Part shown: piece after piece, positions 12,801-30,959 of the stretch
How the letters are laid out: every line of letters begins with the position of its first letter
Position numbering within the stretch: the stretch's first letter is position 1
NCBI GenBank assembly: GCA_021831785.1
Contig: JAKBMB010000016.1
Span: 1 to 64,000, forward strand
Source: Deltaproteobacteria bacterium
Lineage (GTDB): Bacteria > Desulfobacterota > Binatia > Binatales > Binataceae
Length of the DNA stretch: 64,000 bases
Direction: 5' to 3'
Made by a program: the position numbers and the translations under genes
The notes under the pieces: generated by a model
What the model saw: the letters and a program-made list of their open reading frames with translations, nothing else
The model's database searches: none
What the model was told of the DNA's origin: nothing

Positions 12801-12843
12801 ATGACGACGACGGGCGCACGCGATATAATTAAGACCAGGTCTT
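12801..12843 (+). promoter_or_regulatory. Promoter with palindromic operator upstream of the DadA-like gene
   Basis: ATGACG (12801-12806, 4 of 6 to the -35 consensus) is followed after exactly 17 bp by a perfect TATAAT (12824-12829). Directly behind it is the perfect 13-bp palindrome AAGACCAGGTCTT (12831-12843), which would overlap the transcription start. This is the classic position for a repressor operator. The ATG of the next gene begins at 12854. Confidence 0.6.
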
Positions 12844-12853
12844 GAGCCCAGCC

Positions 12854-14008
12854 ATGCCGACGAGCTCCGAATCGCATCACCCAGCCGACGAGATCTCAAG
12901 GCAACGACGGTGGGGAAAGCCGCCTTGGAGCGACGAAGCCTTTCCGAGCGCTCCGCTTGACCCTTCGCACGCAGACGTCGCCATCGTGGGCGGTGGCCTC
13001 ACCGGAGTGTCGGCGGCCTATCATCTTGCCCGCCGCGGCCTGCGCGCGAGCGTGTTTGAAGCAAGCCTTTTCGGCGACGACGCAAGCGGCCGCTCCGGCG
13101 GAATCGTGCTTGAAGGAACTGCTCGCGGGGTTCTGCCCGGCACCGGACAATGCATCGAGAAGCTTCAAGAAGTGGTCAGCGCGGAGAAAATCGACTGCGA
13201 CCTTCAACTGCAAGGATGCTGGGAGATTGAGCACGCGCGTGAAGCCCAAGACCGTGTTCTGCCGTGGCGCGACGGCGGCTTAGCAATCCGCGTTCGACAA
13301 TCCGTGGCGGGCGGGACGCTGAATCCGATGGGGCTGCTCGCGGGTCTGGCGCGGGCCGCGGCGCGCGCCGGCGCGACCTTTTATGAGCGCGCGGCGGTCA
13401 GAAAAATAGTTCGCGGCGTGCGGCCCGCAGTCGAGCTCGACGGTGCGCTGATACAGGCAAATTACGTCGTCGCGGCGGTCAACGCTTGGACCAACGTGCT
13501 ACTGCCCGAGGTACGCCCGGTCAGAAGCGCGCTTACCACGGCATGCGCAACGCAGCCGCTTAGCGCGCCGGCACTTCACGAACTCGGCCTTGGCGCCGGA
13601 GCCCGCCCCTTTTACACCGTTGACCTGCCCTACTTATGGGGCCGCATGCTTGGGCAAAACCAGGTCGTCTTCGGCGCCGGACTGGTGTTCGGCGCGGCGC
13701 CGGTATTGGAAGGAGTTGATCTTGCCGACGATGAACCGCGCCAGGCGCTGGAACAACTCGAGGCACGTGTACGTGCGCTTCATCCGGCGCTCAGCCGCGT
13801 CGGCTTTGCCGCGCAGTGGGCCGGACCCGTGGCGATCGCGGACAACTTCGCGCCGCTGATCGGACGGCTGCCCGATGCGCCGTCGGTAATTGTCGCCGGC
13901 GGCTACAGCGGCCACGGCGTGGCGTTGAGCGTGTGGATGGGCGCGGCGGTCGCGCGCGCGATCGCCGAGGACACGGCTTTGCCCGGATGGGGCGCGCTCG
14001 CGGGTTAG
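12854..14008 (+). CDS. FAD-dependent oxidoreductase (DadA/DAO family)
   Basis: Flavoprotein of the D-amino-acid dehydrogenase / glycine oxidase superfamily, 384 aa. The ADP-binding fold is at the N-terminus, VAIVGGGLTGVSAAYHLARRG, with a GxGxxG pattern and an acidic end of strand 2 (VFEAS). The C-terminal FAD contact is APLIGRLPDAPSVIVAGGYS then GHGVALS. The 40 residues before the Rossmann fold, including RRWGKPPWSDE, resemble the start of gamma-glutamylputrescine-oxidase-like members, so an amine or amino acid is the likely substrate; the exact one cannot be told. A TTG four codons upstream is possible, but I chose the ATG. The last 77 bp, including the stop, are repeated exactly at 16311-16387. 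Confidence 0.85.
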   Translation: MPTSSESHHPADEISRQRRWGKPPWSDEAFPSAPLDPSHADVAIVGGGLTGVSAAYHLARRGLRASVFEASLFGDDASGRSGGIVLEGTARGVLPGTGQCIEKLQEVVSAEKIDCDLQLQGCWEIEHAREAQDRVLPWRDGGLAIRVRQSVAGGTLNPMGLLAGLARAAARAGATFYERAAVRKIVRGVRPAVELDGALIQANYVVAAVNAWTNVLLPEVRPVRSALTTACATQPLSAPALHELGLGAGARPFYTVDLPYLWGRMLGQNQVVFGAGLVFGAAPVLEGVDLADDEPRQALEQLEARVRALHPALSRVGFAAQWAGPVAIADNFAPLIGRLPDAPSVIVAGGYSGHGVALSVWMGAAVARAIAEDTALPGWGALAG

Positions 14009-14009
14009 G
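13933..14009 (+). repeat. 77-bp perfect direct repeat, left copy (att-like)
   Basis: This copy spans the last 25 codons and stop of the DadA-like gene plus one base. It is identical over all 77 positions to 16311-16387. Flanking bases differ on both sides (T against A before, A against C after), so the repeat has sharp ends. The pattern matches an integration site that restores the 3' end of a gene. Confidence 0.95.
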
Positions 14010-14312
14010 AACCCTGGTCAAGAGCGTCTCGATTTTGTTCCTGGAACCCCATGCTACGAACGGCAGCGAGCCGAATTTGGCTAATTTATACAACCTCTCG
14101 GTCAAGGGCGCCCATTACCCATCAAACTGGGTCGACATCTACAGAGGGGGGCCTTAGCAAAGTGCCTCCTTGCCATCCAGCTGTCCGCGCTCGAGAGCAG
14201 TTCGCGCAGCTTTTCGCTTTTCTTGCGCTCGACTCGACAAGATAGTAGAACTTTTTGTCGACGACAATGACGCGTTTGGTCAGGTAGACGCAGAAAAAGT
14301 GAGGGATGAGCC
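14010..14312. other. Left arm of the cassette, no supported gene
   Basis: About 300 bp between the left repeat and the HD gene, AT-richer than its surroundings. A 70-codon minus-strand open frame exists but has no recognisable features. The promoter for the HD gene must lie here, but I could not pick it out with confidence. Confidence 0.4.
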
Positions 14313-15680
14313 TTGCGGGAAGTCCGCGATCCAATTCATGGCTTCATCGGTAGAACCGAGCTGGAGCAAGAGATCATTGATGCCCCCGCGTTCCAGCGTC
14401 TGCGTCTTATTCGCCAGCTCGCGATGGCGAGTCTGGTGTACCCTGGAGCGGTACATACGAGGTTCGACCACTGGCTGGGTGCGATGCACGTGGCTGGTCG
14501 AATCGCACGATCGGTTAGGCTAAACGACGAGGACGTCCGATTGATTCGCCTCGCCGCGCTGCTCCACGACATTGGTCATGGGCCTTTTTCTCACGTTTCC
14601 GAACCAGTGCTCGAAACGTTCACAAAGAGAGAAAACCTTCCGGAAGGGCAGAAGACCCAGATTCACGAGGCGCTGACCGCGGCGATAATTCAGCTAGATT
14701 CGAGCATCGCGCGCCTATTGAGTGAGCGCGACAGGGAAAAAATTACAGGCATCTTATCCGGCACATTTGGACATTCAGTCATGAAGGATATCGTCTCGGG
14801 TCCTCTTGACGCCGATAAACAAGACTACCTGCTGCGAGATAGCTATTTTTGCGGTGTCAGGTACGGGCTTTACGACCTAGATCGTCTATCCGAATGCCTC
14901 ATAGGCCATGAAGATTCAGAGGATCGATATCTGGCGATTACTCAGGACGGAGTGCACGCCCTCGAGCAATTCGTTCTAGCGAAGTATTACATGACCACCC
15001 AGGTCTACCGCCACAAGATTCGCCTCATAACTGACGGAATGATTCAGCGCGCGCTAATCCTGGGCATCAGCAAGGACCGCATAGAGTGGCTAAAGCGGCT
15101 TTATGCCTATGACGGCTCTCAGGAATATCTCGACGAATACAAGAATTGGACGGATGAGCGGCTTATCCACGAGGTGCTTTCGAACAGAACGCCGGACGGC
15201 TTCATGAAGAATCTGTTTCTGCGGCTCATGGCTAGGCAACTTCACAAGCGAATAGCGTCATTTCGAGTCTCCGAATTCGACGATCCTCTGGTGAGAAACG
15301 CGTTAGCCGACCTCGCTGCTTCGGATCGAGAAGCAATTGAAAGCGATGTAGGAAAGGCGTTCGGCTTAGAACCCGAGTTCGTCATCGTGAATTCGTTCGA
15401 CATCAAGTCGGTAAGAGAGCAAGCGCGCAATTCAGAGGCTTCAGTCAGTGTCTTGACGCCCGAAGGTCCGGTCGACTTTGAGGCTGAATCGGCGTTATTC
15501 AGATCCATCGATGAAGCGGTCAAAGAGAAATACATCGAGGTCTACGCGCCGGTAACCTACCGGGACGAGAAGGAAAAGCGCCGCAAACAGAAGGACTACA
15601 AGCAGGAGATCAGGCGCATCTTGATTGAATTCACGAAAAGCTTACAAGCGGCGAAGGGGGAACCTAAAGATGAGACCTAG
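14313..15680 (+). CDS. HD-domain phosphohydrolase, SAMHD1/YwfO-like predicted dNTPase
   Basis: Predicted deoxynucleoside triphosphate triphosphohydrolase of the SAMHD1/YwfO/EF1143 type, 455 aa. The start is TTG with GAGGGATGAG just upstream, and it gives the family N-terminus MREVRDPIHGFI. The HD metal ligands are all visible: His53 in HTRFDHWLG, His85-Asp86 in LLHDIGHGPFSH, and an Asp in SGPLDADKQDYLLRD (about 166-168). The substrate is inferred from the family and could also be another nucleotide. The C-terminal third carries a charged helical tail (EKEKRRKQKDYKQEIRR). The last 11 nt overlap the start of the YwgA-like gene, as in the ywfO-ywgA pair of Bacillus subtilis. Base composition is lower in GC than the flanks, and the gene lies inside the repeat-bounded cassette. 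Confidence 0.88.
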   Translation: MREVRDPIHGFIGRTELEQEIIDAPAFQRLRLIRQLAMASLVYPGAVHTRFDHWLGAMHVAGRIARSVRLNDEDVRLIRLAALLHDIGHGPFSHVSEPVLETFTKRENLPEGQKTQIHEALTAAIIQLDSSIARLLSERDREKITGILSGTFGHSVMKDIVSGPLDADKQDYLLRDSYFCGVRYGLYDLDRLSECLIGHEDSEDRYLAITQDGVHALEQFVLAKYYMTTQVYRHKIRLITDGMIQRALILGISKDRIEWLKRLYAYDGSQEYLDEYKNWTDERLIHEVLSNRTPDGFMKNLFLRLMARQLHKRIASFRVSEFDDPLVRNALADLAASDREAIESDVGKAFGLEPEFVIVNSFDIKSVREQARNSEASVSVLTPEGPVDFEAESALFRSIDEAVKEKYIEVYAPVTYRDEKEKRRKQKDYKQEIRRILIEFTKSLQAAKGEPKDET

Positions 15681-16239
15681 GGAGGTAATATTGGTACTTC
15701 TCGATACGTATGGAGGGCGTCTTCGAGGACGAACACTGTTGCAGAAGCTATGCTACTTCGCCTCCGTGATGGCTGGTCTCGATCTGGGATTTCGAGCTCA
15801 CTATTACGGACCTTATTCACCTGTCATTGAACAAGGAGTCGGTGAACTGAAAAGCCTGGGCTTTGTGAGCGAGGCAGCGCTCGCCTTCGGAGCGGCGCAG
15901 AATGCTGATTTTGGCGAAGTGAGACGATTTGACTATCGGCTCACGCCTGACGGTGAAGCCGTGGTGGCCGACCTAAAGAAACGGCTTCCGGAGGAATGCG
16001 ATAGCCTCGCTGAGATTGTACTTCAGATTAAAGGTGCCGGGGATCCGAACTATCGAGAGCTGTTGCTGGCGGCGAAAACGTATTTCATACTCAAGCGACA
16101 GGGTAAACCAGCAACCTTTGCTGAGCTCGAAAGCGAAGCGAGAAGTTTCTCCTGGCAATTGTCCCAGGAATCCGTACGGAAGGCAGTGGATTTCCTGGCT
16201 GCCCTTGGGTTGGTTGAAACGGGTGGGAAGTCCAACTAG
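15670..16239 (+). CDS. YwgA-like protein, partner of the HD phosphohydrolase
   Basis: Small 189-aa protein resembling B. subtilis YwgA. The ATG overlaps the HD gene by 11 nt and has GGGGG nine nt upstream, so translation is probably coupled. A segment near residues 18-55 (GRTLLQKLCYFASVMAG, then AHYYGPYSPVIEQGV) looks like a winged-helix fold. It recalls the LQKLxYFA...YGP pattern of Panacea/SocA (DUF4065) antitoxin-type domains, although I would not claim membership without a profile search. The C-terminal half (ELLLAAKTYFILKRQG, SVRKAVDFLAALGLVE) also looks like a helical DNA- or protein-binding unit. Its function is unknown. The pairing suggests it senses, neutralises or targets the HD enzyme. 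Confidence 0.8.
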   Translation: MRPREVILVLLDTYGGRLRGRTLLQKLCYFASVMAGLDLGFRAHYYGPYSPVIEQGVGELKSLGFVSEAALAFGAAQNADFGEVRRFDYRLTPDGEAVVADLKKRLPEECDSLAEIVLQIKGAGDPNYRELLLAAKTYFILKRQGKPATFAELESEARSFSWQLSQESVRKAVDFLAALGLVETGGKSN

Positions 16240-16277
16240 CAGGCGGCGTGACCGAGCTTGTCGTAACTTCTGTCCGC

Positions 16278-16295
16278 TGAGCGAGGGATCGCTCA
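16278..16295. terminator. Hairpin behind the YwgA-like gene
   Basis: Perfect inverted repeat TGAGCGA-GGGA-TCGCTCA, a 7-bp stem with a 4-nt loop, 38 nt after the YwgA-like stop and 15 nt before the right 77-bp repeat. No T-run follows, so it may be a weak terminator or part of the element end. Confidence 0.4.
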
Positions 16296-16310
16296 CGGTC
16301 GAGGCCACCA

Positions 16311-16387
16311 GTGGATGGGCGCGGCGGTCGCGCGCGCGATCGCCGAGGACACGGCTTTGCCCGGATGGGGCGCGCTCGCGGGTTAGG
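16311..16387 (+). repeat. 77-bp perfect direct repeat, right copy (att-like)
   Basis: Identical to 13933-14009. It encodes only the tail of the DadA-like protein, without an upstream reading frame. If the cassette was inserted, this is the original chromosomal 3' end. The 230 bp between it and kdsB show nothing else. Confidence 0.95.
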
Positions 16388-16615: not shown

Positions 16616-19025
<2,410 letters not shown>

Positions 19026-19107: not shown

Positions 19108-19932
19108 ATGGTAACCCAAGTAAAGGTCGGCACGGTGGTCTTCGGCGGACCGTGTCTTGCGCTGATCGCCGGGCCGTGCGCGATTGAGAGCCGCGACTCC
19201 TGTCTGCGCCACGCTGAGAAGCTGGCCGAAATCGCGCGCCGCGCGCAGGTGCCGCTGGTCTTCAAGTCCTCGTTCGACAAGGCCAATCGCACCAGCCACG
19301 AGGCCTTTCGCGGCGTTGGTCTTGACCGCGGGCTGGAAATCCTCTCGCTGGTCAAAAGCCGGCTCGGGCTGCCGGTGCTGACCGACGTACATGAAGTCGC
19401 CCAGGTGGCCGCCTGCGCGGAGATCGTCGACGTGCTTCAGATTCCGGCGCTGCTCTCGCGCCAGACCGACTTGGTGATAGCGGCGGCGCAAAGCGGCGCG
19501 GCGGTCAATCTCAAAAAGGGCCAATTCCTCGCGCCCGCGGATATGCACGCCGTGGTGGCGAAGGCGGAGAGCGCGGGCAATCGGCGTTTGCTGGTGACCG
19601 AGCGCGGCTTCTGCTTCGGCTATAACAACCTGGTCAGCGACATGCGCTCGCTGGTTGTGATGCGCCGCTTCGGCTACCCGGTCGTGTTCGACGCCACTCA
19701 TTCGGTGCAGTTGCCGGGCGCGGCCGGCAAGCATTCGCTAGGTCAGCGCGAGTTCATCGCGCCGCTGGCGCGCGCCGCGGCGGCGGTGGGCATCGACGCG
19801 CTGTTCATCGAAGTGCACGAGGACCCCGACCGCGCGCTGAGCGACGGCCCCAACGCTTGTCCGCTCGACCAACTCCCGGCGCTGCTCTCCGACCTGACGA
19901 AAATCGACGAGCTAGTGCGCCGCGCCTGTTAA
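19108..19932 (+). CDS. kdsA: 2-dehydro-3-deoxyphosphooctonate aldolase (Kdo-8-P synthase)
   Basis: Condenses phosphoenolpyruvate with arabinose 5-phosphate to Kdo 8-phosphate, an early step of LPS inner-core synthesis. The 274-aa protein has the family motif AGPCAIES at residues 21-28, FKSSFDKANRTS, the LTDVHE segment, and the late VVFDATHSVQLPG. The ATG is preceded by CGGGGCG. It follows pyrG after 82 bp and probably ends the operon. Two GC-rich hairpin repeats lie directly downstream. Confidence 0.96.
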   Translation: MVTQVKVGTVVFGGPCLALIAGPCAIESRDSCLRHAEKLAEIARRAQVPLVFKSSFDKANRTSHEAFRGVGLDRGLEILSLVKSRLGLPVLTDVHEVAQVAACAEIVDVLQIPALLSRQTDLVIAAAQSGAAVNLKKGQFLAPADMHAVVAKAESAGNRRLLVTERGFCFGYNNLVSDMRSLVVMRRFGYPVVFDATHSVQLPGAAGKHSLGQREFIAPLARAAAAVGIDALFIEVHEDPDRALSDGPNACPLDQLPALLSDLTKIDELVRRAC

Positions 19933-20100
19933 CGCCTTCCCTCGCTGCGCGGGGGAAGGTGGGGAAGGGGGCCTGCGCGCGCCCGCCAACACCCTCACCC
20001 CAACCCTCTCCCAAAGGGCGAGGGGGCAGAAAAGGGCCGCGGCCCTCTGAATCCCTTCCCCCGCTGCGCGGGGGAAGGTTAGGATGGGGGTGCTGGCGCG
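19933..20100. repeat. Cluster of dispersed GC-rich palindromes
   Basis: Two copies of a REP-like unit lie here. The first is CCTTCCCTCGC-TGC-GCGGGGGAAGG (19935-19959, one mismatch). The second has the perfect 11-bp arms CCTTCCCCCGC (20054-20064) and GCGGGGGAAGG (20068-20078) with a 3-nt loop. Between them CCCTCTCCC-AAA-GGGCGAGGG forms another hairpin. A third copy of the first unit lies at 30439-30463, followed in both places by a similar GGATGGGxGTG tail. The first hairpin starts 3 nt after the kdsA stop and may act as a terminator. Confidence 0.75.
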
Positions 20101-20304
20101 CCTCCTCCGCCATAGCTGTCGAATCATCAAGAGGTATCACCGAATCTACTGAACGACTGCATGCTCTTGCTACCCCAAGGAATCTGAGGCATGCTCGGCT
20201 AGCGTGCCTGGGGGCAGCATCGACGCTCGTTTGAGCGGCGGCCTTTTTGTCGGCGCCGGCGGGCGAGCCGGGCGCCCCTTTAGGCTGCTCCGGACAGAAG
20301 TGTC
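20101..20304. other. Gap before the small CxxC gene
   Basis: No gene or riboswitch recognised. I looked for a cobalamin box, because a TonB receptor follows, and saw none. Confidence 0.4.
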
Positions 20305-30253: not shown

Positions 30254-30959
30254 TCCCGATTCACCGCCCGTTTCGATAGCATAACGCCGACTGCGCGGCA
30301 GTCGAAGCTCGTGCCGTGCCGCGGCGCGCCACCAAAAGGAGCCCTCAAATTATTGAGGATTGCAAAATATTGATACGGCGCGCAGTCGTGGGGGACCCGG
30401 TGCTCGCTGCGCGGGCAAGGCCCGCGCCCCCTTCCCGGCCTTCCCCCGCCGCGCGGGGGAAGGTGAGGATGGGAGTGGCTCGGGCTTTTAGCCCGAGATG
30501 GCAGGCTAAAAGCCTACCCCACGAGAGAAGGCCAAGCTGAAAGTCTGCCTGTCACTCTGTACTCTGCGATCCTCAATAAGCGCGGATCTCATGACGTAAC
30601 GGCGATGATGCATCAGGGCCTATATGAGCGCTGCGCGCTTGCCGGTTTTCGACACCGAACCGACGGCTCGGCTAAGTTGCAGCCGCATACGGCCCAATCA
30701 AGCCACAAATTAGCCGTCTCTTAACCGGCGTGCCAAAAAGTTTTATTATTGCCGCTCAAATGATACGCTACGTTCAGAGGATCTTGTCGGGGGTGTTACG
30801 CGCGCTAATTCGGTTCCGGCGATTGCCCGTAACGCGAGGCGTCTCGGCCTGCGGCGACGGGCAGGAATTCGGCGGCGGCGTGGGGCAGCATCTAGGTTGC
30901 TGCGAGTTTACTGTTCTCGCAAGCGCGAACGTCTTTAGGCCAAGGCGAGGAGGGTGCGC
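30254..30959. repeat. Intergenic region with dispersed palindromic repeats
   Basis: About 700 bp without a supported gene. It contains a third copy of the CCTTCCCCCGC/GCGGGGGAAGG palindrome (30439-30463, loop CGC). Two further hairpins follow: CTCGGGCT-TTT-AGCCCGAG (30479-30497) and AGGCT-AAA-AGCCT (30503-30515). These look like dispersed non-coding repeat units. The stretch 30540-30950 shows nothing further. Confidence 0.6.

Follow-up and report, generated by a model that had tools for sequence, protein, structure and literature searches.

A two-gene insert between direct repeats at the end of a DadA-like gene

The window, by which we mean the whole 64-kb stretch of DNA analyzed here, contains a perfect direct repeat (100% identity) whose two copies have a spacing of 2378 nt and flank a short insert behind a DadA-like gene (Table 1). 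The bases just outside both copies differ on each side, making the repeat exactly 77 nt long. The first-pass annotation had stated that the last 77 bp of the DadA-like gene recur exactly; the 77-nt recurrence is exact, and the gene contributes 76 of these nucleotides, TAG stop included, followed by one G. A search of the other contigs, which that annotation had proposed, found no third copy of the 77-mer in this 96% complete genome of 34 contigs and 3.68 Mb, and it is the window's only perfect repeat of at least 30 nt. As had also been described, the DNA between the copies is lower in GC (0.533 vs 0.668 in dadA and 0.63 in the window) and holds just two overlapping genes, the best start of the second being the ATG at 15670, 11 nt inside the first.

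Table 1. Coordinates of the insert, its flanking repeat copies and the neighboring host genes in the window
Feature	Position	Strand	Remark
Target gene, FAD-dependent oxidoreductase, DadA-like (PF01266), intact; 3' end in left repeat copy	12842..14008	+	74% aa identical orthologue in same-genus G001
Left repeat copy: last 76 nt of DadA-like gene with TAG, plus G	13933..14009	+	
Inserted cassette, 2301 bp, 53% GC, without recombinase	14010..16310	+	absent from G001
HD-domain phosphohydrolase (PF01966 + PF19276), EF1143/SAMHD1-like dNTPase fold (predicted)	14313..15680	+	H48, H85-D86, H89, H94, D166 invariant in 35 relatives
Small partner protein, 189 aa, DarG antitoxin C-terminal domain fold (predicted); 11-nt overlap with HD gene	15670..16239	+	
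Right repeat copy: orphan 3' end of DadA-like gene, fused to native kdsB upstream region	16311..16387	+	
Downstream host gene, putative KdsB-like (name from the first-pass annotation)	16634..17383	+	directly after DadA-like gene in G001 empty site

Neither an RNA family nor a tRNA was found as an insertion target, and the predicted structure of the 300-nt leader was no better than that of shuffled sequences. Each repeat copy includes a 24-nt near-palindrome, CGGCGGTCGCGCGCGCGATCGCCG (13944-13967 and 16322-16345), which is equaled in 7 of 667 GC-rich window segments. Elsewhere in the window, a short dispersed repeat family (CCTTCCCCCGCTGCGCGGGGGAAGGT) has three copies, at 19914-20102 and 30418-30487.

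The insertion site is empty in a same-genus genome

The first-pass annotation had proposed inspecting the dadA-kdsB junction of relatives for an empty site, and one was found in G001, the one same-genus genome compared. There the DadA-like gene and the downstream gene are adjacent, approximately 250 bp apart, and the junction contains neither repeat nor insert. DNA identity between G001 and the window is 83% downstream of the insertion and 75% across the DadA-like gene, and the HD pair was not found anywhere in G001, where the best HD match had an E value of 8e-6. The earlier claim of an insertion at the 3' end of a gene with the reading frame preserved is borne out by this comparison. With an empty site and no pair in G001, the simplest dating places the insertion after the two lineages separated, and two copies without a single difference indicate a recent event. 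We conclude that a two-gene module has genuinely and recently been inserted in the window right after the stop codon of the DadA-like gene, most likely through horizontal transfer.

The main alternative in the first-pass annotation was a tandem duplication of a region already holding the pair, followed by deletion, which would also leave a direct repeat. This history is disfavored by the absence of both pair and repeat from G001 and by the recurrence of the arrangement with other host genes (see below), which it does not explain, and it requires two events; we regard it as the least probable of the explanations considered here.

It had also been raised that the second copy might be an assembly artefact, a suspicion strengthened by the repeat being perfect and exactly 77 bp, since 77 is a common k value in SPAdes. 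However, contigs C23 and C31 start with the same 127 bases, exactly 127, and diverge thereafter, indicating that the final assembly k was probably 127. The 77-bp repeat is shorter than this, so single k-mers would span it and the assembly graph would not create a second copy. Further points against an artefact are the unique sequence at both junctions and the older, diverged repeats of the same design at related loci in other assemblies. The inferred k thus lends strong though indirect support to a real repeat; a k-mer artefact is unlikely and was largely rejected, and we give very little credence to the assembler having generated the second copy. A dispersed repeat that is GC-rich and partly palindromic (GGGCGGGCACGGCGGCCCGCCC...GCGCGGGCGCCACGCCCGCGCG) marks the breakpoints of many contigs in this genome (G000), and it is found at the starts of L156, L161, L165, L166, L168, L170, L181, L183, L186 and L187.

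The inserted genes are a conserved pair, an HD phosphohydrolase and a predicted DarG-like partner

The first gene encodes a protein with HD and HD_assoc_2 domains, and its predicted structure (pLDDT 92) matches 4lrl and 3irh (E. faecalis EF1143 with dGTP/dTTP) and SAMHD1 with E values of approximately 1e-20. The HD motif and metal ligands are conserved, without exception in the 35 relatives aligned. Together with the fold match, this points to an EF1143/SAMHD1-like HD dNTPase that would hydrolyze dNTPs.

The second gene had no match in a Pfam search. For the predicted structure of its product (pLDDT 94), the fold search returned DarG, as present in the DarTG complex 7yk3 (E 3e-6, TM 0.64), and no nucleotidyltransferase was among the fold matches listed. 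The DarG model is matched by 69 of 73 homologues of this protein and SocA_Panacea by 8, with the window protein itself a weak match to the DarG and Panacea models, far below their curated cut-offs.

In GTDB, 77 of the 80 best loci have the HD gene followed at once by the partner gene, and the remaining three are short or truncated contigs; more distant HD homologues occur without the partner. We conclude that the HD gene and its partner form a conserved pair, which is distributed among Nitrospira, Deltaproteobacteria, Acidobacteria, Bacillota, Planctomycetes and others. The plasmid and phage records examined contained only distant HD proteins and no annotated partner of this kind, and in a viral contig (L153, 4798-7919) the pair is located directly behind a Phage_integrase gene, 30 bp away. 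The genome of the window has a second, diverged HD and DarG-like pair (L063:8966-10821, G000 contig C9), which is not bracketed by repeats of at least 25 bp.

The partner most likely restrains the HD enzyme, which it would neutralize, and the pair is probably a recombinase-free cassette of a toxin-antitoxin-like or phage-defense-like kind. A SAMHD1-like enzyme joined to a DarG-like antitoxin domain is plausible as a system, and in the literature searched we found no description of an HD enzyme paired with such a domain. That the cargo is a conserved pair of dNTPase-like and antitoxin-like proteins suggests selfish or defensive maintenance, and the pair may be kept through addiction or defense. 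A role in defense would have a parallel in Clover, which also combines an HD dNTPase with a partner and is defensive (PMC12265719).

Bracketing repeats recur at other host genes

The sequence upstream of the HD gene was compared with that downstream within each locus, and a null expectation came from shifting the cassette interval at random within the 75 loci compared. Direct repeats of at least 60 bits bracketed the pair in four loci, compared with 0.14 expected: L125 (118 bp, 84%), L137 (124 bp, 81%), L143 (101 bp, 76%) and L088 (55 bp, 89%). Unrelated flank pairs reached a maximum of 45 bits, related Poribacteria contigs excepted. A second set of loci yielded one further case, L270 (62 bp, 89%). 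The pair therefore recurs beyond the window as a repeat-bracketed unit, and most HD-pair loci have no bracketing repeats. We counted the window, L125, L137 and L270 as clear cases. The L088 repeat was not counted, as it has several copies in its locus and resembles a dispersed repeat; those of L143 and L113 resemble duplicated promoter regions and that of L146 a shared terminator, and all three are doubtful. The L087 repeat, 31 bp long and scoring 41 bits, is a marginal case when set beside the cross-locus control.

The position of the repeat relative to the host gene is similar in the three well-preserved cases. The L270 repeat is the 3' end of etfA including its stop, the L125 repeat is the end, stop included, of a convergent downstream gene, and in both of these and in the window the repeat stops at the host stop codon while its other edge lies inside the gene. 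At L137, yigZ is intact upstream of the pair and the 124-bp piece of yigZ downstream of it is an internal fragment, not the gene end. Relatives without the pair have yigZ beside the same next genes, which provides a second empty site. For L087, L125 and L270, the comparison for empty sites met relatives that are not syntenic or contigs that end. In L309 and L137, which belong to related genomes, the pair follows yigZ and precedes the next gene, its orientation in one being opposite to that in the other, as would arise from a hot spot or a local inversion.

No conserved cassette ends or terminal inverted repeats were found; homology between cassettes is confined to the two genes, indicating that there are no transposon ends. 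The window unit also fits the earlier description of a recombinase-free unit carrying only cargo, with only two genes between its repeats and no tyrosine recombinase (PF00589) on the 274-kb contig. These results suggest that the pair spreads as a bare gene pair without a recombinase of its own.

Possible routes of insertion

One explanation is site-specific integration, in which the repeats would be attL and attR of a minimal element that owes its place at a gene's 3' end to a recombinase of the tyrosine or serine type, one that acted in trans or has since been lost. An integrase supplied in trans would produce an identical footprint. Repeat edges at stop codons and a preserved frame are typical of integration into gene ends, and the window repeat indeed lies at a 3' end and keeps the gene intact. 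The integrase beside the pair in L153 leaves this route some probability, and the repeat carries its near-palindrome, equaled in 7 of the 667 GC-rich segments. However, no integrase lies between the repeats, the contig lacks a tyrosine recombinase and the genome a third 77-mer, and the repeats of the other loci have no counterpart of the palindrome. The diversity of targets, a different gene in each case, and the opposite orientations at the yigZ site both disfavor a single integrase. An XerC/D (pdif-like) module was ruled out, there being no dif-like half-site in the window. Taken together, we consider site-specific integration rather unlikely.

A second explanation is that the module entered at a staggered break or through end joining, with 77 bp of the target copied in the process. 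For the restriction-modification genes of Helicobacter pylori, insertion with long target duplication has been proposed (Nobusato et al. 2000, as described in PMC1643837 and PMC3031569), and the anatomy is the same: a two-gene module of toxic potential, long direct repeats of variable length and an empty site in relatives. Such a process is also in line with targets that differ from case to case and with the lack of a recombinase and of conserved ends. What it does not predict is that all three well-preserved cases should have the repeat edge at the stop codon, barring a combination of chance and selection to keep the gene intact. Target duplication explains everything but this edge, and we view it as a possible, if doubtful, origin of the insertion.

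We favor, with some reservation, a recent horizontal insertion of the toxin-antitoxin-like or defense-like pair through a single crossover inside a gene end common to donor and recipient. The DNA that entered, probably as a circle or after circularization, would have brought its own copy of this gene end, and one reciprocal crossover there would have joined it to the chromosome, leaving the intact gene on the left and the orphan 77-bp gene end on the right. A repeat that stops at the stop codon and has its other edge inside the gene is expected from one crossover when donor and recipient differ past the stop. In E. coli, conjugated DNA can be partly degraded, recircularized and integrated by a single crossover, which left 109-950 bp of the homologous gene in duplicate (PMC3240628). 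Several points count against the crossover. It needs a donor with the pair already behind the same gene and leaves the first capture unexplained, and the right copy at yigZ is an internal fragment rather than a gene end. In addition, a perfect match of 77 bp is short for RecA, and repeats are missing from the majority of HD-pair loci.

A more speculative extension of the crossover, to which we attach a low probability, is that the cassette family captures the 3' end of its host gene and reuses the captured end as single-crossover homology in new genomes. If so, each cassette would bring a host-specific attachment site without any integrase, and the HD dNTPase and DarG-like antitoxin would make up a widespread family of recombinase-free selfish cassettes. 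It is a long-standing question how small defense or toxin-antitoxin modules come to occupy new sites when they carry neither transposase nor integrase. The module family described here has left one type of footprint beside different host genes of unrelated bacteria, which makes the mechanism testable, and the window provides a fresh, perfect case with an empty site.

Comparison with known systems

The HD protein shares its predicted fold, the invariant HD motif and the metal ligands with EF1143-type bacterial dNTPases and SAMHD1; it differs from them in its linkage to a small partner and in an identity of approximately 24% in the structural alignment, and its activity is a prediction. The partner is predicted to fold like the DarG of the DarTG complex and aligns to the C-terminal part of DarG models, and some of its homologues score with SocA_Panacea. 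In contrast to DarTG and SocA/Panacea, no macrodomain and no DarT are present here and the partner is paired with an HD phosphohydrolase; the cargo resembles both DarTG and Panacea systems (PMC8832971) while falling outside either definition. Clover (CloA HD dGTPase and CloB nucleotidyltransferase; PMC12265719) is likewise a two-gene unit of a SAMHD1-like HD dNTPase and a partner, which restrains the toxicity of the dNTPase in that system. The partner described here has a predicted DarG-C-terminal-like fold, with no nucleotidyltransferase among its listed fold matches, and the pair probably lies outside the definition of Clover.

As insertions, the closest known parallel is provided by the restriction-modification modules, with the qualification that a target origin of both window copies is only putative, the copies being identical and a search for a donor having found none. 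In both, a small and potentially toxic module lies between long direct repeats of host DNA, the empty site has a single copy (seen here in G001 and at yigZ) and a recombinase is lacking. The differences are the cargo, a predicted HD dNTPase-like and DarG-C-terminal-like pair in place of restriction-modification genes, and the repeat ending at the host stop codon in the three best cases.
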